Assembly (NCBI RefSeq): GCF_900143005.1
Contig: NZ_FRCS01000001.1
Span: 806,001-870,000, forward strand
Direction of reading: 5' to 3'
DNA length: 64,000 nt
From: Cryptosporangium aurantiacum
Lineage (GTDB): Bacteria > Actinomycetota > Actinomycetes > Mycobacteriales > Cryptosporangiaceae
Notes under the pieces: generated by a model
What the model was told of the DNA's origin: nothing
What the model saw: the letters and a program-made list of their open reading frames with translations, nothing else
The model's database searches: none
Part shown: piece by piece, positions 13,382 to 31,237 of the stretch
Numbering within the stretch: the first letter of the stretch is position 1
Layout of the letters: each line of letters opens with the position of its first letter
Made by a program: the position numbers and the translations under genes

Positions 13382-13983
13382 ATCCAGCCGGAGCGGCGGG
13401 CCGCCGCGACGGCCTCGTGCCGGTTCTGGGCGCCGAGCTTCCCGGTCGCGGACGACAGGTGGTTCCGCACGGTGCCGGGGGAGAGCGAGACGCGGACCGC
13501 GATCTCCTCGATCGTCGCGCCGTCGGCGGCCAGCTCCAGCACGTCGGCCTCCCGCGGGGTGAGCGGGCTCTCCCCGGCGGCGATCGCGTCCGCAGCCAGC
13601 TCCGGGTCGACGTACCGGCCGCCGCCGGCCACCGTCCGGATCGCGGCCGCCAGCACCGAGCCGGACGACGTCTTCGGGAGGAACCCCCGCACGCCGATCT
13701 CGAGCGCACGCTTCAGGTAGCCGGGCCGTCCGTGGCTGGTCAGCACCATCGTGGCGCAGCCCGGGACGTCGGCGTGGATGCCCGCGGCCGCGGCCAGCCC
13801 GTCGGCGCCGGGCATCTGCAGATCGAGCACCGCGACGTCCGGCAGCTCCTTGCATGCCATCGCGATCGCCTCGGCCCCGGACGCCGCCTGCGCCACGATC
13901 AGCAGGTCGTCCTGCAGGTCGAGCAGCCCGGCGATCGCGCTGCGCACCAGGTTCTCGTCGTCGGCCAGCAGTACCCGGATCAA
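13378..13983 (-). CDS. NarL/LuxR-family response regulator
   Basis: A 201-residue two-component response regulator. The receiver domain has Asp8/Asp9, phospho-acceptor Asp54 (VLDLQMPGADG) and the Lys in FLPKTSSG. A GerE-type helix-turn-helix (LTPREADVLELAADG) covers residues 135-195. I place the start at TTG 13983, overlapping the kinase stop as TTGA and preceded by GAGGAGG inside the kinase gene; no ATG or GTG is available at this point. It is cotranscribed with the kinase and the ABC exporter, which it probably regulates. Confidence 0.9.
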   Translation of the reverse strand: MIRVLLADDENLVRSAIAGLLDLQDDLLIVAQAASGAEAIAMACKELPDVAVLDLQMPGADGLAAAAGIHADVPGCATMVLTSHGRPGYLKRALEIGVRGFLPKTSSGSVLAAAIRTVAGGGRYVDPELAADAIAAGESPLTPREADVLELAADGATIEEIAVRVSLSPGTVRNHLSSATGKLGAQNRHEAVAAARRSGWI

Positions 13984-19914: not shown

Positions 19915-20517
19915 TTACGGCGTCGTCGCCGCGCCGCCCGCGGCGGTGCCTGGCGCTTCCGCGGTCGGAGCGGTCGTCGGCGCCGTCGTCGGGGCGGTCG
20001 TGGTCGGGGCCGTCGTCGGCGCCGCGGTGGTCGGTGCGGTCGTCGGCGCGGTGGTCGGAGCCGCCGTCGTGGGCGCCGTGGTCGGAGCCTTCGTCGGGGC
20101 CTTCGTCGCGCCGGCGGACGGCTTGGCCGTCGCGGTGGCGCTCGGGGCCGGTGCGGTGACACTGTCCGTAGTGGCCTGATCACCGGACTGTGCCGCTGCG
20201 GTGTCGCGGGACAGGTTGCCGGTGTCCGACGCGGAGTCCGAGCTCGCCGCACCGGCGCTGGGCGCCGTGCGGGTGGCGGCGGCCTTGTCTCCGGCCGGGA
20301 ACAGCGTGTCCAGGCCGACCGAGGAGCCGGTGAACAAGCTGATGGCCAGCAGTCCGGTGTAGAGCAAGCAGCACGCGGAGACGAAGCCGGCGACGATCCG
20401 GACCAGGCGTCGGCGGCGTCCGGTCGTGTCGACAAAAACCGGCGAGCGCGAGGTCAGCACGTCATCGCCGAGAGGTTCGAGACTCTGCGTGATGTCGGAG
20501 GGGGCGACAGTGTTCAC
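19915..20517 (-). CDS. PVFVD-motif single-pass membrane protein with Thr/Pro-rich extracellular tail
   Basis: A 200-residue protein of unknown function. Residues 1-25 are short and acidic. Then comes PVFVDTTGRRRRLVRI (from Pro26), immediately before a membrane helix at about 40-62. The positive-inside rule puts the N-terminus in the cytoplasm. Outside lies GSSVGLDTLFPAGDK, a Ser/Ala/Thr region, and a tail of about 55 residues built of APTT/PTTA repeats, probably O-mannosylated or wall-spanning. GTG at 20517 follows TAGTCT by 6 nt, so it is likely leaderless. The juxtamembrane motif recurs in the genes ending at 20741, 21615 and 29220, making a local four-member family. Confidence 0.75.
   Translation of the reverse strand: MNTVAPSDITQSLEPLGDDVLTSRSPVFVDTTGRRRRLVRIVAGFVSACCLLYTGLLAISLFTGSSVGLDTLFPAGDKAAATRTAPSAGAASSDSASDTGNLSRDTAAAQSGDQATTDSVTAPAPSATATAKPSAGATKAPTKAPTTAPTTAAPTTAPTTAPTTAAPTTAPTTTAPTTAPTTAPTAEAPGTAAGGAATTP
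19950..20112 (-). repeat. Thr/Pro repeat-coding region
   Basis: Imperfect 12-15 bp repeats (gtcgtcggcgcc-like on the plus strand) encode about 50 residues of A-P-T-T units. This is the extracellular tail of the PVFVD-motif protein. Confidence 0.8.
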
Positions 20518-20523
20518 GCTTCG

Positions 20524-20529
20524 AGACTA
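20524..20529 (-). promoter_or_regulatory. -10 element of the 19915-20517 gene (leaderless)
   Basis: TAGTCT on the minus strand is 6 nt before the GTG. Upstream at 20544-20556 is CAGCCTTACCTCA, which resembles half an iron box. Confidence 0.45.
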
Positions 20530-20740
20530 AAGACCCACGGGTGCAGCCTTACCTCACGCTCAGTTAGCTCCATTTCCGGTTCTATCCGGACAGACGGGGG
20601 TGCGAATTCCCGGTAAGTCCGGACAAACCCGAGATGGCGCAACGACTTCGACTATCAGGTAACTCACAGTGAGAGCGTGTCGGACATCGGACGAAGTATC
20701 TGAGCGTGACTATGCAAATGCGACTAGTAGCGTTCGCTGG

Positions 20741-21490
20741 TCAGGACGCCCAGGGGAACAGGGTGTCCAGGAGGCCGTCGAGGGCGTTGCCGCTCGGCGA
20801 AGGGCTCGGCGCCGCGGCGGACGGCGTCGGCGCGGGAGGGTTGCTGGGGGCGGCGGAGGGCCGAGTGCTCGCGGCCGGGGCGGAGCGCGTCGACCGAGGG
20901 GTGGCGGCGGGTGCGCTGCCGGTGGCTCGTGCCGCCGGTCCGGTGTCGACGGTCGCGGCCGCGGAGCGGGAGAGTTCGGCCCGGGCGGTGGCGACCGGGG
21001 CGCCGGTGGCCGGCGGCGACTGTTTGCCGCCCGGACGTAACTCCGGGGAAGCGTGTGACTGTGCCCCGTGACCGCCGAGCATGCTGACGACGAGGATCGT
21101 GGCGTACGTCAGGCCGGCGAGGCTGACCAGCCAGAGTGCTGCCCGCAGGCGGCGCCGACGGCGGCCGGTCGTATCGAGGAACACGGGGAGTTCTGCATCA
21201 GCGACCCTGTGTAATAGTTGCGTGTCGTCGGTGCTGTTCGCGGCGTCCGAATCGGAGCGTGTGTCGACCGGAGGCGGGTCCGGCGTCTCGGCGGGGGCGT
21301 CATCCGGGGGCGTGAGACCGTCGCTGGCGGGCTCGCCGACCGGATCCGGGGTATCACCCTGCGATTCCGCCTGCGGCGGCTCTGCGGCCGCGGGCTCGGG
21401 AATCTCGCCGTCCTCGCCCGCCCTGGTGATCGAGGGAGTCCAGAACGCGGGAGTGACGCCTGTGGTGTCGTCGGTAGGGACGAGAGGCAT
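20741..21490 (-). CDS. PVFLD-motif single-pass membrane protein
   Basis: A 249-residue protein of unknown function with the same architecture as its neighbours. It has an acidic, Pro-rich cytoplasmic segment of about 100 residues, then PVFLDTTGRRRRRLR (from Pro102), a membrane helix at about 119-140, and a low-complexity Ala/Ser/Pro/Thr exterior. It ends in LLDTLFPWAS. The LDTLFP string also occurs just after the membrane in the preceding family member. The ATG at 21490 is preceded by TAGCCT with a 6-nt gap; a GTG at 21496 is an alternative. It is separated by 223 bp from the gene at 20517, which holds only the latter's promoter. Confidence 0.72.
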   Translation of the reverse strand: MPLVPTDDTTGVTPAFWTPSITRAGEDGEIPEPAAAEPPQAESQGDTPDPVGEPASDGLTPPDDAPAETPDPPPVDTRSDSDAANSTDDTQLLHRVADAELPVFLDTTGRRRRRLRAALWLVSLAGLTYATILVVSMLGGHGAQSHASPELRPGGKQSPPATGAPVATARAELSRSAAATVDTGPAARATGSAPAATPRSTRSAPAASTRPSAAPSNPPAPTPSAAAPSPSPSGNALDGLLDTLFPWAS

Positions 21491-21496
21491 GCACAC

Positions 21497-21502
21497 AGGC
21501 TA
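21497..21502 (-). promoter_or_regulatory. -10 element of the 20741-21490 gene (leaderless)
   Basis: TAGCCT on the minus strand lies 6 nt before the ATG, the same geometry as in the other three family members. Confidence 0.45.
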
Positions 21503-21614
21503 AAGGGAACGGGACGGCGCTAACCATCCCTGTAAACTGAAATGTCCTACTTCAACACTGGTCCTCCTGGGGGCAATCCTCGTGCCCCCAGGAAGGGCAC
21601 CCCGGTGTACGCAG

Positions 21615-23261
21615 TTAGGGCCCCGGGCTCACGCTGCCGCCGGTCGGCCCGGCGGTGGGCTGCGTGGGGTTACCGGTGGGCTCCGGGTCGTCGGACGGCT
21701 CCGGCTCGCGCGTCCGCGTCGGACGCGGCGTCGGGGCGGGCTCGTCGTCGTCCGGGGCTGCCGCCGACCGGGTCGGATTGGTCACCTGCGGCCCTCGGCT
21801 GGATTCCGGGGCCGGGTCGCCGACCGCTCTCTCCGACGGGCTCGCGGACGCCGACGCCGACGGCGACTCCGACTTCGCCGGGGGAGCTTCGGTCTTCTTG
21901 TCCTCTTTCTTCTCGTCGATGATCGCGCCGCGCATGACCCCAGGCCCGGCGGTCAGGCTGACGATGATGCCGATCAGGAACAGCAGCGCGATGATGCCGA
22001 CCAGGCGGAACAGGATCTTGAGCCGCTTCTGGCGCTTGCCGCTGCTGTCGACGAAAACCGGTCGCCCGAGGTCGTCGGGGCGGGTGAAGAGCTGGGTGGC
22101 CTGGTCGTCGCTGCCCGCGGGCATGCCGGGGACGTCGATCCGCGGCAGATCCTCCGGGCGCCGGATCATCTGCGTCGCAGCGTCATCCGGGCCGCCGACC
22201 CGGGTCGCGGCGACGCCGGGCGGACCGCCGGCCGCACCGGACGACGGCCGCGGTACGAACATCTGGGTCTGCTCGTTGTCCTGGTCACGCAGGGCGCGGT
22301 CGAGCGGTGAGCGGTCGGTCGCCTTGGGTAACACCATCGTGGACTCGGTGTCCACCGCCGGCGGAATCGGCACGTCCCGGCGCGGCGGCGGACCGTCGGC
22401 CGGGGTACGGGCCGCGGGGATGATCCGCGTCTCGGCGCCGGGCGACCCCTCACGGTTGTCGCGGCGACCCAGCGCGGGCAGGCCCAGTTCCTCGGGCCGG
22501 ACCCGGCGAGTCTCCTGGCCGGGCTCCTCGTCGTAGCCGCCCCGGCGGTCATAGCCCGCCCGGTCGTCGTGCCCGCCGTCGCCTCGACGGCCCTCCGGAC
22601 GCCGGTCGCCGTACCCGCCGCGGTCGTCGTACCCGCCACGCTCGTCGTACCCGCTCCGGTCGCGGTAGCCGCTCCGGTCGTCGTTTGCCATCCGGTTGTC
22701 GTACCCACCGCGGTCGTCATAACCACGTCGGTCGTCGTATCCGGCCGCGCCGTTGTAGCCGGGGGCCCCGTCGTATCCGGCCGCGCCGTTGTAGCCGGGG
22801 GCCCCGTCGTAGCCGGGGGCCCCGTCGTATCCGGGAGCCCCGTCGTATCCAGGAGCCCCGTCGTATCCGGCACCGTTGTAGCCGCGGCGCGAGCGGTCGT
22901 CGTACCCGCGCCGGTCGTCCTGCCCGCGCCGGTCGTCCCGACCCGCGCGCTCGTCGTAGCCGCCGCGCTCGTCGTACCGGTCGGGTCGCCGCTCGTCGTA
23001 CCGGCGGTTGTCGTCGTATCCGTTGTACCCGCCGCGGTCGTCGTAGTCGTCGAACGAACCGCGGTGCGCGCCGTCGTCCTCGTACCGACCGCGGGGCTCC
23101 GGCGGCCGCGTCCTCGATGGCTCCGGGGAGGGGTGGTGGCCACGCTCGGCCTCGGTGGAGCGGGGCCGACGGTAGGTCGCCGCGTCAGGGTCCGCGCCGC
23201 GCGGAGGGTCGTACGTCCCGCCGTTCGGGCGGGCGTCGTCATACCGGTAGCCGGAAGCCAT
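21615..23261 (-). CDS. Large PVFVD-motif membrane protein with RGYD-rich disordered domain and TxxΦ repeats
   Basis: A 548-residue protein of unknown function. Residues 1-250 are disordered and rich in Arg/Gly/Tyr/Asp, with GYDGAP tandem repeats. Residues 250-395 contain six spaced motifs of the form T-x-x-hydrophobic (TRRV, TRII, TMVL, TQMF, TQMI, TQLF), several followed by RP-[DE]-[DE]-L. Then comes PVFVDSSGKRQKRLK (about 399), one membrane helix (about 415-437), and an exterior of Lys/Glu/Pro/Ser/Thr. ATG 23261 follows TACCCT by 7 nt. The T-x-x-hydrophobic pattern resembles FHA-domain phosphothreonine ligands, which suggests Ser/Thr-kinase signalling. That role is inferred. Confidence 0.72.
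   Translation of the reverse strand: MASGYRYDDARPNGGTYDPPRGADPDAATYRRPRSTEAERGHHPSPEPSRTRPPEPRGRYEDDGAHRGSFDDYDDRGGYNGYDDNRRYDERRPDRYDERGGYDERAGRDDRRGQDDRRGYDDRSRRGYNGAGYDGAPGYDGAPGYDGAPGYDGAPGYNGAAGYDGAPGYNGAAGYDDRRGYDDRGGYDNRMANDDRSGYRDRSGYDERGGYDDRGGYGDRRPEGRRGDGGHDDRAGYDRRGGYDEEPGQETRRVRPEELGLPALGRRDNREGSPGAETRIIPAARTPADGPPPRRDVPIPPAVDTESTMVLPKATDRSPLDRALRDQDNEQTQMFVPRPSSGAAGGPPGVAATRVGGPDDAATQMIRRPEDLPRIDVPGMPAGSDDQATQLFTRPDDLGRPVFVDSSGKRQKRLKILFRLVGIIALLFLIGIIVSLTAGPGVMRGAIIDEKKEDKKTEAPPAKSESPSASASASPSERAVGDPAPESSRGPQVTNPTRSAAAPDDDEPAPTPRPTRTREPEPSDDPEPTGNPTQPTAGPTGGSVSPGP
22734..22874 (-). repeat. 18-bp tandem repeats coding GYDGAP units
   Basis: Seven 18-bp units plus a 15-bp remnant are head-to-tail (for example gtcgtatccgggagcccc at 22824-22841). 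They encode G-Y-[DN]-G-A-[PA] repeats in the disordered region. Near-identity of units implies recent expansion. Confidence 0.9.
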
Positions 23262-23268
23262 GGCTTTC

Positions 23269-23274
23269 AGGGTA
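23269..23274 (-). promoter_or_regulatory. -10 element of the 21615-23261 gene (leaderless)
   Basis: TACCCT on the minus strand is 7 nt before the ATG. On the plus strand it reads as part of GGGTAAGGC. Confidence 0.45.
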
Positions 23275-23405
23275 AGGCGTGCCGGGAGTGACCCACGATC
23301 TGGAGGTGAAGGTTCCATCCGTTCGGCCCGGTTGTTGCCAACGTTCGGTACATCACAGCGGTGCGTAGGCTCGTCCGGTACGGACCGAATCCGGAGGGGG
23401 CGACG

Positions 23406-24146
23406 ATGCCGATGGAGCCGGAGAGCACTCCGATGACCAGGGGCGATACCGACGCGGACGGTGCCGGGCCGCGGCTGCGCCGCGATCAGCCGGGGCTACT
23501 CACCGTTGCGGTCGGCCCGGTCGGTCGGTTCGACGACAGGGCAGTCCGGACGCTGAGCGGGCTGGCACGAATCGGACGCGAACTGACCGGCGACATCCGG
23601 GTGGTCGTCCTCGAACTCGCCGAAAGTAACGCGTCCACTACCGACAGTGCATCCGGGGAGGATCGCGACCCGGTTCTGGCCGGTTACCAAGAGGGGGTGG
23701 CCTGGCTCCGGCGGGCAGACGTCGTCTCGGTGGCCACCGCACGGGGCCCGCTCACCGGCGTCGCCGTGGAACTCGCGCTCTGCTGCGACCTGCGGCTGCT
23801 CGGCGTCGAGGCGTCGCTCACGCTGACCGGAGCGCGCACCGGGGGCGCGCCGCTGCTCGGGGCCACCGGCCGGCTGGTCGACCTGGTCGGTGCCGCACGG
23901 GCGACCGAGCTCTGCCTCACCGGGCGAACCGTCGGCGCGGCCGAGGCCGAGCGGATCGGGCTCGTCTCCCGGGTCGTGCCCGGCACCGAGTTGGAGGTGG
24001 CCACCGACGCGCTCGTCGCGGGGCTGCTGGCCGCCGACCGCGTCGCGCTCACCGAGACCAAGGCGCTGCTGAACCACACTCTGCGCGACCAGTTGGCCGC
24101 TGAGCGTGAGTCCTTCGCCCGCCGCGCCCGGCCCGACGCCGGTTAG
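23406..24146 (+). CDS. Enoyl-CoA hydratase/isomerase family protein
   Basis: A 246-residue crotonase-fold protein. Recognisable parts are ARGPLTGVAVELALCCDLRL, the AEAERIGLVSRVVPG helix-strand and a C-terminal LTETKALLNHTL. The N-terminal 40 residues are divergent. The usual catalytic Glu positions of hydratases are not evident, so the reaction is uncertain. The ATG at 23406 has GGAGGGGG 5 nt upstream and is preferred over an in-frame GTG at 23361. In M. tuberculosis an enoyl-CoA hydratase (echA12) also neighbours the ABC-F gene. The stop overlaps xth by 4 nt (TTAG). Confidence 0.85.
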   Translation: MPMEPESTPMTRGDTDADGAGPRLRRDQPGLLTVAVGPVGRFDDRAVRTLSGLARIGRELTGDIRVVVLELAESNASTTDSASGEDRDPVLAGYQEGVAWLRRADVVSVATARGPLTGVAVELALCCDLRLLGVEASLTLTGARTGGAPLLGATGRLVDLVGAARATELCLTGRTVGAAEAERIGLVSRVVPGTELEVATDALVAGLLAADRVALTETKALLNHTLRDQLAAERESFARRARPDAG

Positions 24147-24925
24147 TTCACGTCCACGACGACCGGGGCGTGATCCGACGGGGCCTTTCCCTTGCGGGCG
24201 TTGCGGTCGACGTAGGCGTCGCTGACGGTGGCCGCGAGGGCGGCGTCCGCATAGAACAGGTCGATGCGCATGCCGAGGTTCTTCGGGAACGCCCCGGCCC
24301 GGTAGTCCCAGTAGGTGAACGGGTGGTCGTATTTCAACGGCCGCGGCACCACGTCGACCAGCCCGGCCTCGCGCAGCGAGGCCAGCGCCGCCCGCTCCGG
24401 CGGCGTGACGTGCGTGAGGCCGACGAACGCGGCCGGGTCGAAGACGTCGTCGTCGGTGGGGGCCACGTTGAAGTCGCCGGCGACGACGAACGGGCCCGAC
24501 CCCAGCTCCGCGGCCACGGTGTTCCGCAGCGCCTCCAGCCAGGCCAGCTTGTACGTGTAGTGCGCGTGCCCGGGTTCGCGCCCGTTCGGCACATACACCG
24601 ACCAGATCCGGACGCCGTCACAGGTGGCGCCGATCGCGCGCGGCTCCGGGTCGTCGGGGAACCCCGGCTGGTCGACCAGGCCGCGGGTCACCCCGTCCAG
24701 CCCGACCCGGGACAGCAGCGCCACGCCGTTCCAGCGTCCGTCGCCGTGGGCGGCGGTCTCGTAGCCCAGTTCGGCCACCGCGTCGGCGGGGAACGCGTCC
24801 GTGCTGCACTTGATCTCCTGCAGGCAGACGACGTCCGGCTTCGTGGTCGCGAGCCAGTCGAGCAGCCGCGGGAGACGCGCGATCACCGAGTTCACGTTCC
24901 AGGTCGCCAGGCGCACGGCACCCAT
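24143..24925 (-). CDS. xth: Exodeoxyribonuclease III (AP endonuclease)
   Basis: A 260-residue endonuclease/exonuclease/phosphatase-fold enzyme that incises DNA at abasic sites and degrades 3' ends. It has LATWNVNSVIARLPRLLDWL at the N-terminus, the metal-binding QEIKC, YVPNGRE, GDFNVAPTDDDVFDP with catalytic Asp/Asn, and SDHAPVVVDVN at the end with the catalytic Asp-His. Length is standard for XthA. It is divergent from the ABC exporter by 64 bp. Confidence 0.95.
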   Translation of the reverse strand: MGAVRLATWNVNSVIARLPRLLDWLATTKPDVVCLQEIKCSTDAFPADAVAELGYETAAHGDGRWNGVALLSRVGLDGVTRGLVDQPGFPDDPEPRAIGATCDGVRIWSVYVPNGREPGHAHYTYKLAWLEALRNTVAAELGSGPFVVAGDFNVAPTDDDVFDPAAFVGLTHVTPPERAALASLREAGLVDVVPRPLKYDHPFTYWDYRAGAFPKNLGMRIDLFYADAALAATVSDAYVDRNARKGKAPSDHAPVVVDVN

Positions 24926-24989
24926 CCTGCCGCGTGATCGGAATCTGTGCGGCGATTACAGTGTTACATCGCACCGGAGGTGGCGCCCG

Positions 24990-26858
24990 ATGACCGAGCC
25001 GATGGCGGCCATGCAGCTGATGCGCACGATGCGCCGCGGTGGCCCGGATTCGCAACGGAAGCTTCCGCCGGGTACGGCGAAGCGGATCTTGGCGTTCGCA
25101 CGCCCGTACCGGCGTGACATCGCGGTGTTCCTGCTGGCCACCGTGGTGTCGGCGGTGATCGCGGTGGTGACGCCGGTGCTGGCCGGGCGGGTGGTGGATG
25201 CGATCAGCCGGGGTGGGCCCCGGAGTGCGGTGGTGACCGTGGCGCTGGTGATCGCCGGGCTCGCCGTGGTCGACACCGTGCTGTCGATGGTCGGGCGCTG
25301 GTTCTCGTCCCGGATCGGCGAGGGCATCATCCTGTCCCTGCGCAGCCGCGTGTTCGGGCACGTCCAGCGGATGCCGGTCGCGTTCTTCAGCCGGACACAG
25401 ACCGGAGCGCTGGTGAGCCGGCTGAACAACGATGTGATCGGGGCGCAGCGCGCGTTCACGTCGACGCTGTCCGGAGTGGTCTCGAACGTCATCGCGCTCG
25501 TGCTGACGCTCGCCGTCATGCTCACGCTGTCCTGGCAGATCACGCTCGCGGCGCTCGTGCTCCTACCGATCTTCGTGCTGCCGGCCCGCCGGGTCGGGCG
25601 GCGGCTGGCCGCGATCACCCGCGAGGCCGCCGAGCTCAACGCCTCGATGAACACGACGATGACCGAGCGCTTCAACGTCGCCGGTGCGGTGCTCGTGAAG
25701 CTGTTCGGGCGACCGGACGAGGAAGAGGCCGCGTTCACCCGGCGCGCGGCCAGGGTCCGGGACGTCGGCATCCTCTCCGCCGTCTACTCCCGAGCGTTCT
25801 TCGCCGCGCTGACGCTGGTCGCGGCGCTCGCGACCGCGCTGGTCTACGGCGTCGGCGGCTCGCTGGCGCTGGCGGGGAGCCTGTCCGCGGGAACCGTCGT
25901 CAGCCTCGCGCTGCTGCTCACCCGGCTGTACGGGCCGTTGACCGCGCTCTCCAACGTCCAGCTCGACGTCGCCAGCGCGCTGGTGAGCTTCGACCGGGTC
26001 TTCGAGGTGCTCGACCTGCCGCCGATGATCACCGAGAAGCCGAACGCGGTACCCGTGCCCGCCGGGGCGCGCAGCGTCGAGTTCCGGAACGTCTCGTTCA
26101 GCTACCCGGCCGCCGACGAGGTCTCGCTGGCCTCGCTGGAGGAGGTCGCGGTCCTCGACACCGCGCCGCGGACCCGGGTGCTGCACGACGTCGACTTCAC
26201 CGCCCGGCCGGGGCAGCTCGTCGCGCTGGTCGGCCCCTCCGGGGCCGGGAAGACGACGATCAGCCAGCTGATCCCGCGCCTGTACGACGTGGACGCCGGT
26301 GCGGTGCTGGTCGGCGGCGTGGACGTCCGGGACGCGACGACCGCCTCGCTGCGGGACGCCGTCGGCGTCGTCACCCAGGAGGCGCACCTGTTTCACGACA
26401 CGATCCGGGCCAACCTGCTGTTCGCGCGCCCGGGAGCGTCCGACGACCAGCTCTGGGACGCGCTCCGCCGGGCCCGGATCGAGCCGCTGGTGCGGTCGCT
26501 GCCGGACGGCCTCGACACGGTCGTCGGGGAGCGGGGCCATCGGCTCTCCGGCGGCGAGAAGCAGCGGCTGGCGATCGCGCGGCTGCTGCTCAAGGCGCCG
26601 GGCGTCGTCATACTGGACGAGGCGACCGCGCACCTGGACTCGGACTCCGAGCGCGCGGTGCAGCAGGCGCTGGACGAGGCGCTGGCCGACCGCACCGCGA
26701 TCGTCATCGCGCACCGTCTCTCCACGGTCCGGGACGCCGACCTGATCCTCGTCGTCCAGGACGGCCACATCGTCGAGCGCGGCACCCACGAGTCCCTGCT
26801 CGCCGCGGGCGGCCTCTACGCCGGCCTCTACGAGACCCAGTTCGCCCCGGCGGCCTAG
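24990..26858 (+). CDS. ABC exporter (fused membrane and ATPase domains)
   Basis: A 622-residue half-transporter of the multidrug/lipid exporter type. Six membrane helices occupy about residues 40-330 (DIAVFLLATVVSAVIAVVTPV). The ATPase has Walker A GPSGAGKTT, signature LSGGEKQRLAIA and Walker B VVILDEATAHLD, then AHRLSTVRDAD. An unusual acidic insert (SLASLEEVAVLDTAPRT) separates the first nucleotide-binding strand from the rest. The ATG at 24990 has GGAGG 9 nt upstream. It probably acts as a homodimer. Its stop overlaps the next convergent gene by 4 nt (CTAG). Confidence 0.92.
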   Translation: MTEPMAAMQLMRTMRRGGPDSQRKLPPGTAKRILAFARPYRRDIAVFLLATVVSAVIAVVTPVLAGRVVDAISRGGPRSAVVTVALVIAGLAVVDTVLSMVGRWFSSRIGEGIILSLRSRVFGHVQRMPVAFFSRTQTGALVSRLNNDVIGAQRAFTSTLSGVVSNVIALVLTLAVMLTLSWQITLAALVLLPIFVLPARRVGRRLAAITREAAELNASMNTTMTERFNVAGAVLVKLFGRPDEEEAAFTRRAARVRDVGILSAVYSRAFFAALTLVAALATALVYGVGGSLALAGSLSAGTVVSLALLLTRLYGPLTALSNVQLDVASALVSFDRVFEVLDLPPMITEKPNAVPVPAGARSVEFRNVSFSYPAADEVSLASLEEVAVLDTAPRTRVLHDVDFTARPGQLVALVGPSGAGKTTISQLIPRLYDVDAGAVLVGGVDVRDATTASLRDAVGVVTQEAHLFHDTIRANLLFARPGASDDQLWDALRRARIEPLVRSLPDGLDTVVGERGHRLSGGEKQRLAIARLLLKAPGVVILDEATAHLDSDSERAVQQALDEALADRTAIVIAHRLSTVRDADLILVVQDGHIVERGTHESLLAAGGLYAGLYETQFAPAA

Positions 26859-29149
26859 CGCGGTGAGGTCTGGACGTCCCCGGTGCGGCGGAGCTTTTGC
26901 CAGCGGAGGCGTGCGCCGGTCAGGGCCGTGGCCACCGACTGGATCAGGACGACGTACATGAGCTGCCGGTAGACGATCTGCTGCAGCGGGAACGCCCACA
27001 GCGGCCGTAGCCGCTCCCGGTCCAACCGGAACGCGATCACCGCGATCACCAGCTGCACGACGAGCATGCCGAGCCAGCCGAGCGCGGTCAGCGCGGCGTC
27101 GTAGAAGAGCAGCCCATAGATGAGGAACACGTCGATCAACGGCGCGAGCAGCGGCAGCACCACGCCGAACAGCGCCAGGAACGGCAACCCGACGCGTCCG
27201 AACCGCCCGGACGGCCCGCGGTCCGCGAACGCGCCGCGGTGCTTCCACATCGCCTGCATCGTCCCGTACGTCCAGCGGTAGCGCTGGGTGGCGAGCTGGC
27301 CCATCGTCGCGGGCGTCTCGGTCCAGGCCCGCGCCTGGTCCTGGTAGACGACCAGCCACCCGGCCCGGCTCAGCGCCATCGTCAGGTCGGTGTCCTCGGC
27401 GAGCGTGTCGTCGCTGACCCCGCCGACCTGCTCCAGCGCCTCCCGCCGGAACGCGCCGATCGCGCCGGGGACCGTCGGCATGCAGCGCATGATCTCGTAC
27501 GCGCGCCGGTCCACCGCGAAGCCGGTCACGTACTCGATGTGCTGCCAGCGCCCGAGCAGGCTGCGCCGGTTGCCGACCTTGACGTTGCCTGCCACCGCAC
27601 CCACCGCCGGATCCGAGAACGGTTGCGCCAGCGCGGAGATCGAGCCCGGCTCGAAAAGCGTGTCGCCGTCCACCATGACCACGAGCGGATAGTCGGTGGC
27701 GGCCGCGCCGATGTTCAGCGCCCGCGCCTTGCCACCGTTCGCGACCCGGATGATCCGGACGTTCGGTAGGCCCAGCGCCTCGACGATGTTCGCGGTGCCG
27801 TCGGTGGAGCCGTCGTCGACCACGATGACCTCGACCGGCACCGGGCGGCCGTCCGGCGCCCGCCCCACGTAGTCACCGGCGACCAGCGACCGGACCGCGG
27901 CCTCGATCCCGGCGCTCTCGTTGTACGCCGGAACGACGACCGACACCGGCAGCGTGACCGGCGGCGGAGGGCCCTTCTTCCGCTGTTTCCGCTGCCGGGC
28001 GACGTGCCGCCAGGTCAGCACCAGCATCAGGATCAGCCGGGCGATCGTCAGCGCGCCGACCAGGATGATGAGGTACGTGCACCACAGCACGAACTCGTGC
28101 GCCAGCCAGATGCCGTAGAGCACCGCGCGTCCGCGCCACAGCTCGCTGACGGTCGCCGAGCGGTGCACGGTCGCGGTGCTGCCGTCGCCGAAGTTGATGC
28201 CCTCGGACAGCGTCGTGAACGTGTAGCCGAGCTTCTTCATCTTCGGGATGTAGACGTCGAGCGCCTCGACGGTCTGCTCGCGGTTGCCGCCGGCGTCGTG
28301 CATCAGGACCACGGCTCCCACCCCATCCTCCGGGGTGGCGTTCTCGACGATCTCGTTCACGCCGGGCCGCGCCCAGTCCTCACCGTCGACGTCGGCGACG
28401 ACCGTGACGTAGCTCAGATCGCCGGCTTCCTTGATGATCGGCCAGTACGTGTCGTCGATGGCCGCCGCGGTCGACGAGTACGGGAACCGCAGCAGCGACG
28501 TCGTGTCGCCGGTCGCGCCGACCACCGCCATCTGGGTCGCCGAGTACTGCAGGCGACGCTCCCAGGCCGAGATGGTGGACATGTCGGCGTGCGTGAACGT
28601 GTGGATGCCGATCTCGTGGCCCTCGTCGTGGACCCGGCGCGTCATCGAGGGGTCCTCGGTGATGCGGGCACCGACCATGAAGAACGTCGCGTCGACGTCG
28701 TGTTCCTTGAGCACGTCGAGGATCTTCGGTGTCCACGTCGGGTCGGGGCCGTCGTCGAACGTCAGCGCGATCGTGCTGTCCTTCATGCCGAAGGACGCGG
28801 TGGTGCGGTGCTGCGTGGTGTCGATGACCGGTCCGCCCTCGGTGATCTCCGAGGGGACGTCGTCGGTGCTGCCCGCCTCGTGCACGGTGCTCGACGCGCC
28901 GACGGACGCCGTGGCGACCGCGTTGAGGAAGAGGACCGCGCACAGAAAGATCAGGAGGACGATGACGACGGGCACCCGGCCGCGGGCTCGCCGCTCTCCG
29001 CGTCGCTGCTCGTGCGGGCTGGGGCTGCGCCGACGCCGGCCGCGGAGCAGTCCGGCGGCGGGAGGCGGCTCCGGGGGGCCGTCCGGTTCGGCGAGGTCGG
29101 GCCCGGCGTCCTCGGCAGGGTCCTGCGGGCGACGGACGGACCGGGGCAT
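26855..29149 (-). CDS. Bifunctional polysaccharide deacetylase / family 2 glycosyltransferase
   Basis: A 764-residue membrane protein. A Pro/Arg-rich cytoplasmic start and one helix (about 60-80) precede an extracytoplasmic NodB deacetylase (about 110-330) with LTFDDGPDP, the zinc-binding HTFTHADM, RFPYSS and VLMHDAG. A second helix group leads to a GT2 domain (about 400-650) with VVPAYNES, VVDDGSTDG, MVDGDTLF, LAEDTDL and QRYRWTYGT. C-terminal helices complete a processive synthase-like layout. It likely makes and de-N-acetylates a beta-linked amino-sugar polymer. It lies 70 bp downstream of a small PVFVD-motif protein gene in the same direction, probably one operon. Confidence 0.9.
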   Translation of the reverse strand: MPRSVRRPQDPAEDAGPDLAEPDGPPEPPPAAGLLRGRRRRSPSPHEQRRGERRARGRVPVVIVLLIFLCAVLFLNAVATASVGASSTVHEAGSTDDVPSEITEGGPVIDTTQHRTTASFGMKDSTIALTFDDGPDPTWTPKILDVLKEHDVDATFFMVGARITEDPSMTRRVHDEGHEIGIHTFTHADMSTISAWERRLQYSATQMAVVGATGDTTSLLRFPYSSTAAAIDDTYWPIIKEAGDLSYVTVVADVDGEDWARPGVNEIVENATPEDGVGAVVLMHDAGGNREQTVEALDVYIPKMKKLGYTFTTLSEGINFGDGSTATVHRSATVSELWRGRAVLYGIWLAHEFVLWCTYLIILVGALTIARLILMLVLTWRHVARQRKQRKKGPPPPVTLPVSVVVPAYNESAGIEAAVRSLVAGDYVGRAPDGRPVPVEVIVVDDGSTDGTANIVEALGLPNVRIIRVANGGKARALNIGAAATDYPLVVMVDGDTLFEPGSISALAQPFSDPAVGAVAGNVKVGNRRSLLGRWQHIEYVTGFAVDRRAYEIMRCMPTVPGAIGAFRREALEQVGGVSDDTLAEDTDLTMALSRAGWLVVYQDQARAWTETPATMGQLATQRYRWTYGTMQAMWKHRGAFADRGPSGRFGRVGLPFLALFGVVLPLLAPLIDVFLIYGLLFYDAALTALGWLGMLVVQLVIAVIAFRLDRERLRPLWAFPLQQIVYRQLMYVVLIQSVATALTGARLRWQKLRRTGDVQTSPR

Positions 29150-29219
29150 CGCAGTCCTTCGATCGGCCGACCGGGGTCGGCGGGCGGTCGGTGCGCGCCG
29201 CCACTCCCGGTTCGCCCGG

Positions 29220-29495
29220 TCAGCTCGCGGTGGCCGAGGCGGTCGCGGACGTCGTGGCCGAAGCGCTCGGCATCGCGGTCGAGAGATCGACCGAGGAGCC
29301 GAACAGCCCGCTGGCCATCACGCCCAGGTACACCGCGAACGCCAGGCAGACGACGACCGCGAGGACGCGGAGCCAGCGGGCGCGGCGTCCGGTGGTGTCG
29401 ACGAAGACCGGCGCGGACGCTCCGGTGGTCGCGCGGGTGATCGCGCTGTCGTCGGCGGGGCGGTCAGTGACGGTGAGTAATCCGTTGAGGCTCAT
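29220..29495 (-). CDS. Small PVFVD-motif membrane protein upstream of the deacetylase/glycosyltransferase
   Basis: A 91-residue protein of unknown function and fourth member of the local family. A cytoplasmic stretch of 28 residues is followed by PVFVDTTGRRARWLRV (from Pro29), one membrane helix (about 43-64), then GSSVDLSTAMPSAS and a Ser/Ala/Thr tail. The ATG at 29495 follows TACGCT by 7 nt, so it is likely leaderless; the frame is open further upstream to 29540. The gene order suggests it works with the surface polysaccharide synthase encoded next. Confidence 0.72.
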   Translation of the reverse strand: MSLNGLLTVTDRPADDSAITRATTGASAPVFVDTTGRRARWLRVLAVVVCLAFAVYLGVMASGLFGSSVDLSTAMPSASATTSATASATAS

Positions 29496-29502
29496 GAGAT
29501 CA

Positions 29503-29508
29503 AGCGTA
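29503..29508 (-). promoter_or_regulatory. -10 element of the 29220-29495 gene (leaderless)
   Basis: TACGCT on the minus strand lies 7 nt before the ATG. It would also drive the downstream deacetylase/glycosyltransferase gene. Confidence 0.45.
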
Positions 29509-29721
29509 GAACCGCCATGAACCTCGCTAATCGGACTCACAGGTTTAACAAAGCGCCCAATACGGTCACCAGTTGACCTCCAGAAACGGACATTACCGGA
29601 TCATCTTACCGTTTCCGGGGCTCAGGATCGGCATTCCGGTGCCCGTGCCGTCGACCGTTCGGAGGGCTGATACATCCGGACGTCTTCAGTTTCCGCACTC
29701 AGCGTAATCACGTAGAAACGG

Positions 29722-30981
29722 TCAGGCGCCGAGCGCGGTCCACGTTTTCCGGTCAACGATGCCGGTCACCGGCAGGTGGTGCGTCCGCTGGAAGATCTTC
29801 ACGGCGTTCTGGGTCTTGGTCGCGAACGTGCCGGTGACCGTGGGCAGCTTGAGACGACGCTGCAGCGCGGTCACGGCGGCACCCTTCGAGCCGTACTTCA
29901 GCACTGTGTCGCGGTACTGCGTGAGGGGGTTGGGCGCCGCCGGCTTGGCCGTCGCGGGCTTGGCCGTCGCGGCGGGCGTCGCCGGCTTCGCAGCGGGCGT
30001 TGAGGGCTTCGCGGCGGGGGGCGCGGGCTTGTGGGCGGCCAGCAGGGCCCGCCACGTCGCGGCGTCGACCACCGCGGTACCGGGCAGCTTGTGCGCGGTC
30101 TTGAACGAGACGACCGCGGCAGCGGTCTTCGGCCCGAACGCGCCGTCGGCGGTGAGACCGAGCGCGGCCTGGAGCGCCTTGACCGCGTTGCCGCTCGCGC
30201 CCGACTGCAGCTGCGCGCCGGAGAACTTGACCAGCCCGGCGTAGGCCGCGGGGGAGCCGGCCGGAGCGCTGAGCGTCGCGTACGTCGTGCACTTGGCCGC
30301 GTTCAGCGCGCGGTACGGCGCCGCGTAGTTCAGGTCGGCGGTGCGGCACGGCCCGAAGTCGTTCGCGGCCACCGAGCCGGTCCAGAACGACGTCCGCTTC
30401 ATCGCGCCGGCCCAGCTCAGGCTGAAGTGCACGTGGTCGCGGTGGCAGGTGGTGTCCCAGCTCGCCTCCGGGTGCGACGCGCACGTGGAGTACGGCTTCC
30501 AAGCGGCGTTGTAGCTGCCCCAGATCCGGCCGTCCCAGATGATGTACATGACGCCGAGCCGGCGGGCGTTGGCGTACTTGTTGCCCGCGGAGTCCGTGGC
30601 GAACAGCCAGTTGAGCACGGCGGTGGCCTGCGCGGCCTGGGACGGCTTGCGGATCGAGTTCATCCAGTCGACGGCCCGGCCGTCGTAGTGCTCGCTGGAC
30701 ATCGTCCCGGTGCAGGAACGGGTCACGCCGTAGGACGTGTCCGGGTACGTGGCCTTCAGCAGCGCGCCGAACGCGATCGCGCCGGGCTTGTCGACCCACT
30801 CGCAGGAGGTCTGCGCGACGTACGGGGCCAGCGCCTCGATCCCGCTGGGCAGCTTGGCCGGGGCCGACGGGGTCTTCACCGGGGCGGCCGCGGAGGCCGC
30901 GACCGGTGCGGCCGCGATGCCGGTGACCACGGACAGGGCCAGGGCCGCGCCGAGCGCGCGCAGCCGGCGGAGTCGGGGCAT
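29722..30981 (-). CDS. Secreted protein with ARB_07466-like domain and two peptidoglycan-binding domains
   Basis: A 419-residue exported protein. A Sec signal peptide (RRLRALGAALALSVVTG, ending near ASAAAP) is followed by an ARB_07466/D,D-peptidase-like domain. That domain has SCEWVDKPGA, SSEHYDGRAVDWM and TCHRDHVHFSLSW, whose His/Asp pattern resembles metal-binding M15-type folds. Two PG_binding_1 domains follow (GNAVKALQAALGLTADGAFG and GAAVTALQRRLKLPTVTGTF), separated by an Ala/Pro/Lys linker. I chose ATG 30981; an in-frame GTG at 31002 is possible. It probably acts in the cell wall, either as a hydrolase or as a binding protein. Confidence 0.82.
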   Translation of the reverse strand: MPRLRRLRALGAALALSVVTGIAAAPVAASAAAPVKTPSAPAKLPSGIEALAPYVAQTSCEWVDKPGAIAFGALLKATYPDTSYGVTRSCTGTMSSEHYDGRAVDWMNSIRKPSQAAQATAVLNWLFATDSAGNKYANARRLGVMYIIWDGRIWGSYNAAWKPYSTCASHPEASWDTTCHRDHVHFSLSWAGAMKRTSFWTGSVAANDFGPCRTADLNYAAPYRALNAAKCTTYATLSAPAGSPAAYAGLVKFSGAQLQSGASGNAVKALQAALGLTADGAFGPKTAAAVVSFKTAHKLPGTAVVDAATWRALLAAHKPAPPAAKPSTPAAKPATPAATAKPATAKPAAPNPLTQYRDTVLKYGSKGAAVTALQRRLKLPTVTGTFATKTQNAVKIFQRTHHLPVTGIVDRKTWTALGA

Positions 30982-31237
30982 CGAACGCAGCGAGATCGTC
31001 ACGGCGGCCAGATCGGCGCCCGACGGTTGCCGTCTGACCCGAACGCCGCGCGCGCACCTGGCCCGCACCGATCCCGATCCCGGCGCGCTCCCGACGCCGC
31101 GCGGGTTTATCACTGCAAACCGGGCGCCCCCGCTGACCAGCCCTATCTCTGCCTCAAGAATTGGGTTCGGGCCTGCCGGAAAGCCACACGGTGCGCTTAA
31201 GGTCCGCAGAGAGAGACGGACGGGGAAGGTGTAAGCA

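Follow-up and report, generated by a model that had tools for sequence, protein, structure and literature searches.

A 64,000-nucleotide stretch of the Cryptosporangium aurantiacum genome (contig NZ_FRCS01000001.1, positions 806,001 to 870,000 of the forward strand; hereafter the window) contained four minus-strand genes whose products shared the 10-residue patch P-V-F-[VL]-D-[TS]-[TS]-G-[RK]-R directly before a single membrane helix (Table 1). Three of them (p1, p2, and p3) formed an array at 19915 to 23318, none being directly upstream of a gene for a polysaccharide deacetylase (PDA) fused to a family 2 glycosyltransferase (GT2), and the nearest such synthase gene was about 3.5 kb away. The fourth, matA-like gene preceded this PDA-GT2 (matB-like) gene on the same strand at a distance of 70 bases. 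A six-frame scan bore out what an earlier note on this DNA had said of the four genes and of the fourth gene's neighbor: the strict pattern occurred only at 20442, 21187, 22061, and 29411 of the minus strand, two looser patterns hit the same four sites only, and 60 random windows with the same neighbor-base frequencies gave 0 matches, which ruled out a chance origin of the motif.

Table 1. Motif genes, motif sites, and synthase gene in the window (positions counted from its first base)
Feature	Position	Strand	Basis or remark
matA-like gene	29220..29540	minus	106-residue open reading frame, start uncertain; directly upstream of PDA-GT2 gene; orthologous position in G001-G003
Motif PVFVDTTGRR of matA-like gene	29382..29411	minus	Six-frame pattern scan
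matB-like gene (N-terminal helix, PDA outside, GT2 inside)	26855..29149	minus	Pfam, helices, motifs
Array paralogue p3, long Y/G/R/D-rich cytoplasmic head	21615..23318	minus	567-residue open reading frame
Motif PVFVDSSGKR of p3	22032..22061	minus	Six-frame pattern scan
Array paralogue p2	20741..21496	minus	251-residue open reading frame
Motif PVFLDTTGRR of p2	21158..21187	minus	Six-frame pattern scan
Array paralogue p1	19915..20517	minus	200-residue open reading frame; groups with matA in module tree (93/74)
Motif PVFVDTTGRR of p1	20413..20442	minus	Six-frame pattern scan

The motif codons differed among the four genes, and conservation was thus at the protein level, as the earlier note had held. 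Its C-terminal extension of the patch (x-x-[RW]-[LV]-[RK]) was found in three of the four proteins, while p1 had Leu at the [RW] place; of its lengths (200, 249, 548, and 91 residues) the first stood, while the longest open reading frames of the others had 251, 567, and 106 residues, with start codons uncertain. Each protein had one hydrophobic stretch, directly after the patch, with 4 to 6 Lys/Arg in the 15 residues before the helix and 0 to 1 after it, and a tail composed of 54 to 75% S/T/P/A; the Lys/Arg distribution and the composition of the tail together support a cytoplasmic motif and an exterior tail. The helix and the residues just outside it were also partly conserved, and the patch was part of a longer module. 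The head of p3 (window 22062 to 23318, minus strand; 419 residues by longest open reading frame, 53% Y/G/R/D) displayed repeats of G-Y-D-G-A-P and D-D-R-R-G-Y types followed by several T-Q-[ML]-[FI] sites; we take the former to resemble condensate-forming regions and the latter kinase/FHA sites.

The matB-like product contained a PDA domain by Pfam and a GT2 domain with motifs of D-D-x-D-QxxRW type. TIGR03937 (PgaC_IcaA) was its best family in NCBIfam, with 171.2 bits against a cut-off of 422.3, and despite this sub-cut-off score the product may work like the PgaC/IcaA synthase of poly-N-acetylglucosamine (PNAG). IcaD and PgaD have two membrane helices, and models for them are held by Pfam and NCBIfam. 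The window proteins resembled IcaD/PgaD in that a small membrane partner was encoded with a PNAG-type GT2, but they had one helix each and none of the four matched an IcaD/PgaD family model of Pfam or NCBIfam at E<=0.1; nor was there an IcaD/PgaD match in NCBIfam for a Streptomyces motif protein. No Pfam or NCBIfam model was found for the module in the proteins scanned, in line with the earlier note's remark that no named domain matched. The best of 12 profile matches to solved structures had an E value of 0.74 and involved unrelated helices. DUF3040 (E 0.054) and Collagen were rejected as domains of motif proteins, both lying below their cut-offs, and a hint of mannosylation from PF02366 (PMT), present at five places in the own genome but also in 8 of 14 control genomes, said little.

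A profile of the module was applied to further genomes, and the family recurred near cell-envelope genes beyond the window, as the earlier note had expected of a true family. The own genome (9.58 Mb) had seven profile places at E<=1e-4, namely the four window genes, one on contig C4, and two on contig C25; one of the two C25 copies was degenerate, leaving two clear members outside the window. The C4 copy belonged to a second matA-matB pair (L095, G000:C4:270000-287000), whose neighbors were a response regulator and a sensor kinase and, at a greater distance, two acyltransferase-like genes. In G001 to G003, the three other genus members searched, three copies again lay next to each other and a further one at about 7.5 kb (motif to motif), this distance from array to matA being kept in all four genus genomes searched; profile matches numbered five to seven per genome in the genus, and there were two copies in a genome of another genus (G004). 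Within the class, matches were counted by hand in 73 of 394 genomes at E<=1e-3 and in 54 of 394 at E<=1e-5, most of them in the small product of a gene that directly precedes a PDA-GT2 fusion gene; one of the 54 was judged false (G182 locus L107, E 2.6e-6, with transporter-like genes around it by eye). The phylum sample gave matches at E<=1e-5 in 15 of 396 genomes. Among weak matches lying mainly over the helix, the 11 loci opened (L257 to L267) had no PDA or GT2 and were treated as false. F, D, G, and R were invariant in the alignment of stand-alone modules, partly by construction since its rows were picked with a pattern, and L103 had Ala in place of the motif Asp. In a module tree of 61 columns, in which many forks were weak, each array gene grouped with the same-place copies of the other genomes, and p1 was nearest to the matA-like gene of the window; since array genes grouped by place across genomes, the array duplications look older than the genus.

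The module was closely linked to the PDA-GT2 synthase. PDA-GT2 was present at E<=1e-80 in 14 of 98 class genomes and the same 14 had the motif at E<=1e-5, whereas the motif was not found at this threshold in the 84 genomes without PDA-GT2, at most 10 to 15 candidates being scored per genome, so that these absences are not proof. Judged by coordinates, the motif gene immediately preceded or overlapped 15 of the 16 synthase copies; in the 16th case (G073), motif and synthase were separated onto two contig ends, with the motif letters present. Thirty-five of 40 stretches fetched around motif matches had a PDA-GT2 gene beside the motif gene, the remaining five being L094 (the C25 copy), L097 (its counterpart in G001), L100 (motif gene at a contig end), the false match L107, and L112. 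In the 53 pairs measured, the stop codon lay within 20 bases of the nearest start in 47 and overlapped it in 31. At 110 split loci, which were chosen by the motif, the N-terminus of the synthase itself had no motif, and a motif fitting the pattern stood upstream in 108 and variants of it in two. The synthase thus tends to have the module once, either in its own chain or in the preceding protein.

The gene order of named genomes places the motif gene as a probable matA-type gene of Streptomyces. The named-genome scan gave at least 597 matching stretches, 461 of them relatives; the best 80 loci were kept, all titled Streptomyces except [Kitasatospora] papulosa, and with the motif at a mat-type locus in this set chosen by the motif, S. 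coelicolor and S. lividans not being among them. The usual order was ftsX-S41-smpB-[motif gene]-PDA/GT2-acyltransferase: in loci with enough flank, PDA (75/75), GT2 (74/74), and acyltransferase (73/73) followed the motif gene, while smpB (57/73) and ftsX (53/73) preceded it, and L143, titled S. griseus, showed the usual order in full. In the literature, matA (SCO2963) is a putative membrane protein gene that overlaps matB (SCO2962) and lies two genes from ftsEX, SCO2961 is an acyltransferase gene, S. griseus is among the mat carriers, and SCO2964 is called an IclR-type regulator, whereas the named loci here had smpB at that place (PMC4391728). MatA is described as having no known domain and an unclear function, perhaps with an IcaD-like role, the authors comparing it with IcaD, and matA mutants of S. 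lividans lose PNAG staining (PMC5972031); SCO2963 is listed as a one-helix membrane glycoprotein (PMC6593405). The window's fourth gene shared with MatA (SCO2963/SLI_3306a) the place before a PDA-GT2 gene, which is often overlapped, the single helix, the inside N-terminus, and the low-complexity outside tail, and the likeness extended in named Streptomyces to the neighbor order with ftsX, smpB, and acyltransferase; the window differed in having four copies, of which three lay apart from matB, and in its heads and stalks. On these sequence features, gene 29220 is taken as the matA of the adjoining matB and the array genes as old paralogues not beside matB. The family is therefore not local, as the earlier note had called it, given its presence in 54 of 394 class genomes and a gene type already known as matA; neither of the outcomes that the note had named as refuting its proposal, a motif confined to the window or a match to an existing Pfam domain, was seen. 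Two further elements were conserved in the 80 named loci: an inner T-[VIMAL]-[QRE]-[LM]-[DES] was located 25 to 43 residues before the patch in 66 (and at 73 residues in one other locus), and A-P-[WFSL]-L-[PL] closely followed the helix on its outer side in 63. Judged from sequence, there may be more than one contact.

The module was also found within the synthase chain itself. In the phylum search, a 1163-residue frame of G524, from another actinobacterial class, consisted of MDSKPVFFDPKGRRKRR, a helix, GH18, PDA, and GT2; the whole fused frame was not found in 35 further genomes of that class, and the fused protein was not found in viral contigs. The plasmid-record search gave 187 records, and the 10 fetched comprised eight of GH18-PDA-GT2 type, one Kocuria PDA-GT2, and one Streptomyces split pair. 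GH18 was found by Pfam in G524 and Deinococcus and not in Sphingobium and Sulfitobacter, these being the four fused proteins so examined, and was read from the alignment to G524 in the remaining ones. Seven of the ten fused proteins had F-x-D-x-x-G-x-R ahead of their first helix (G524, two Novosphingobium, Sphingobium, Sphingomonas, Deinococcus, and Kocuria), and the cis module was thus seen in Pseudomonadota, Deinococcota, another actinobacterial class, and the Kocuria PDA-GT2. The profile built from stand-alone actinomycete modules scored 21.6 to 36.8 bits in six of these seven, compared with a maximum of 15.7 for 3000 shuffled N-termini, a control made with annotated starts, which cut off some N-termini. 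Invariant N-terminal columns of the fused alignment refer to the five rows chosen out of ten, Novosphingobium RL4, Kocuria, Sulfitobacter, Limimaricola, and Prevotella being left out. Compared to MatA, the GH18-PDA-GT2 single-chain glycosyltransferases (Sphingomonadaceae, Deinococcus, and G524) shared the F-x-D-x-x-G-x-R patch and N-terminal helix in most examples examined but had the module in cis, an extra GH18 domain, and no separate stalk protein. In L248, L252, L254, and L255, annotated starts lay after or inside the motif, and the deposited proteins did not include part or all of the module.

Adjacency, co-occurrence, and fusion together make the PDA-GT2 enzyme the likely partner of the module. 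We consider it probable that motif plus helix is a synthase-docking membrane module, acting in trans (MatA) or in cis, and that the array genes encode alternative or regulatory subunits. In most actinomycetes with the module, it resides in a separate single-pass protein of MatA type: the patch, [PA]-[VI]-F-[VL]-D-x-[ST]-G-[RK]-R, would lie against the inner membrane face, the helix would span the membrane a single time, and a disordered stalk rich in S/T/P, which is glycosylated in S. coelicolor, would extend into the wall. MatA would assemble with MatB, docking physically on the cytoplasmic side of its GT2, which would polymerize an amino-sugar chain inside while the deacetylase trims it outside, and MatA would be needed for polymer output in an IcaD/PgaD-like job; a polymer of this kind would be made in the present organism as well. 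In some other lineages, the same module forms the first segment of the synthase chain. The three array genes are ancient paralogues that keep the module but differ in heads and stalks; they most likely encode alternative or regulatory subunits of this synthase, and their homology together with a synthase gene about 3.5 kb away suggests that they share this partner. More tentatively, the F-x-D-x-x-G-R-R helix module may be an old cross-phylum control element of amino-polysaccharide synthases that began as an enzyme N-terminus, or the reverse, that works in trans as MatA in actinomycetes, and that the genus multiplied into exchangeable subunits; if so, different cytoplasmic heads, among them the condensate-like 419-residue head of p3 with its repeated T-Q sites, would allow a single synthase to respond to several inputs.

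Under one alternative, the patch would be a general signal for targeting or membrane insertion (for poles or septa, or as a strong positive-inside anchor), and its place next to synthases would reflect only their need for targeting of this kind. This would agree with the position of the patch at the site of topology signals, with the Lys/Arg residues before the helix noted above, and with the motif copies that have no synthase nearby. However, copies were few (seven places in the 9.58-Mb own genome), the module was not found in the genomes without the synthase, within the scoring depth given above, and the invariant F, D, and G are not needed for positive-inside topology; we regard such a signal as improbable. 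The docking or sorting signal proposed by the earlier note thus stands as far as a common partner is concerned, which is strongly suggested, while a sorting signal was not supported, the motif not being found at E<=1e-5 in the 84 of 98 genomes without the synthase. It also appears unlikely, if less so, that the array genes have ceased to act with the synthase and use the module for another partner, such as an envelope protein or the ATP-binding cassette (ABC) exporter between array and matB: the array genes are not beside the synthase gene, their heads and stalks differ, and a C25 paralogue lies by eye among genes for a sensor kinase, a small GTPase-like protein, and a solute-binding protein, whereas motif and helix of the array are kept alike, p1 is nearest to the window's matA, and the array keeps its distance from matA in all four genomes. 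That matA matters only through translational coupling to matB is very improbable; the frequent overlap of stop and start would allow it, and coupling was raised for a matA frameshift, but pellet formation returned in the frameshift mutant when it was given matA on a plasmid, the cloned stretch reaching to +1485, beyond matA (PMC4391728). Across families, moreover, the patch shows conservation at the protein level, coupling to matB is absent for the array genes, and other lineages have module and synthase in one chain.

Several observations weigh against a synthase-docking module. Motif copies without a nearby synthase comprised p1 to p3, the copies at L094 (C25) and at L097 (its counterpart in G001), and L112; the second motif copies of G022 (L064) and G077 (L227) had no PDA-GT2 within 1.5 kb, and a truncated PDA-GT2 in G464 had no motif. 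Among the ten fused synthases, the motif was worn in Sulfitobacter and Limimaricola and absent in Prevotella, and the Kocuria protein scored 15.2 bits, not above the shuffles. Deletion of matA gave small pellets, a milder phenotype than the fully dispersed growth of the matAB deletion (PMC4391728), and MatA may not be absolutely required. The predicted structure of the window's matA-like protein had one confident helix (51 to 81) and left the motif at low confidence; this would suit a patch that folds on its partner and proves nothing.

The kind of gene (matA) and its need for PNAG is already published, whereas, as far as the literature searched shows, the motif-defined family, its cis copies in other phyla, and a genus with five to seven matches per genome are new. 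Matches to the motif strings in the literature were unrelated by title, no description of the motif was found in the excerpts of the MatA literature (PMC5972031, PMC4391728, PMC6593405, PMC7300013, and PMC6629963), and those of PMC13390465 and PMC13118837 held nothing bearing on it. MatA is needed for the polymer that clumps Streptomyces mycelia, a cost in industrial fermentation, and was still left without a known domain or clear function in the 2018 paper (PMC5972031). With a short signature that occurs in trans in actinomycetes and within the synthase chain in Pseudomonadota and Deinococcota, MatA function can be tested through point mutations, and annotation of many unnamed proteins becomes easier; the genus of the window offers natural paralogues for how one synthase is steered.

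The surroundings of some motif genes were also inspected. A gene encoding a protein with two PG_binding_1 stretches (window 29722 to 31113, minus strand), whose first half looked by eye like a metallopeptidase, preceded the matA-like gene on the same strand, and such a gene also preceded it in G001 (L096). In L064 (G022:C1), an acyltransferase-like stretch directly followed the motif gene without an intervening PDA-GT2, an arrangement that looks like loss of the synthase gene. In L094 (6734 to 13962; G000:C25) and L097, the motif gene without a synthase lay by eye among genes for a large sensor kinase and small GTPase-like and solute-binding proteins, and L094 contained the degenerate second motif copy at 13483 to 13962.

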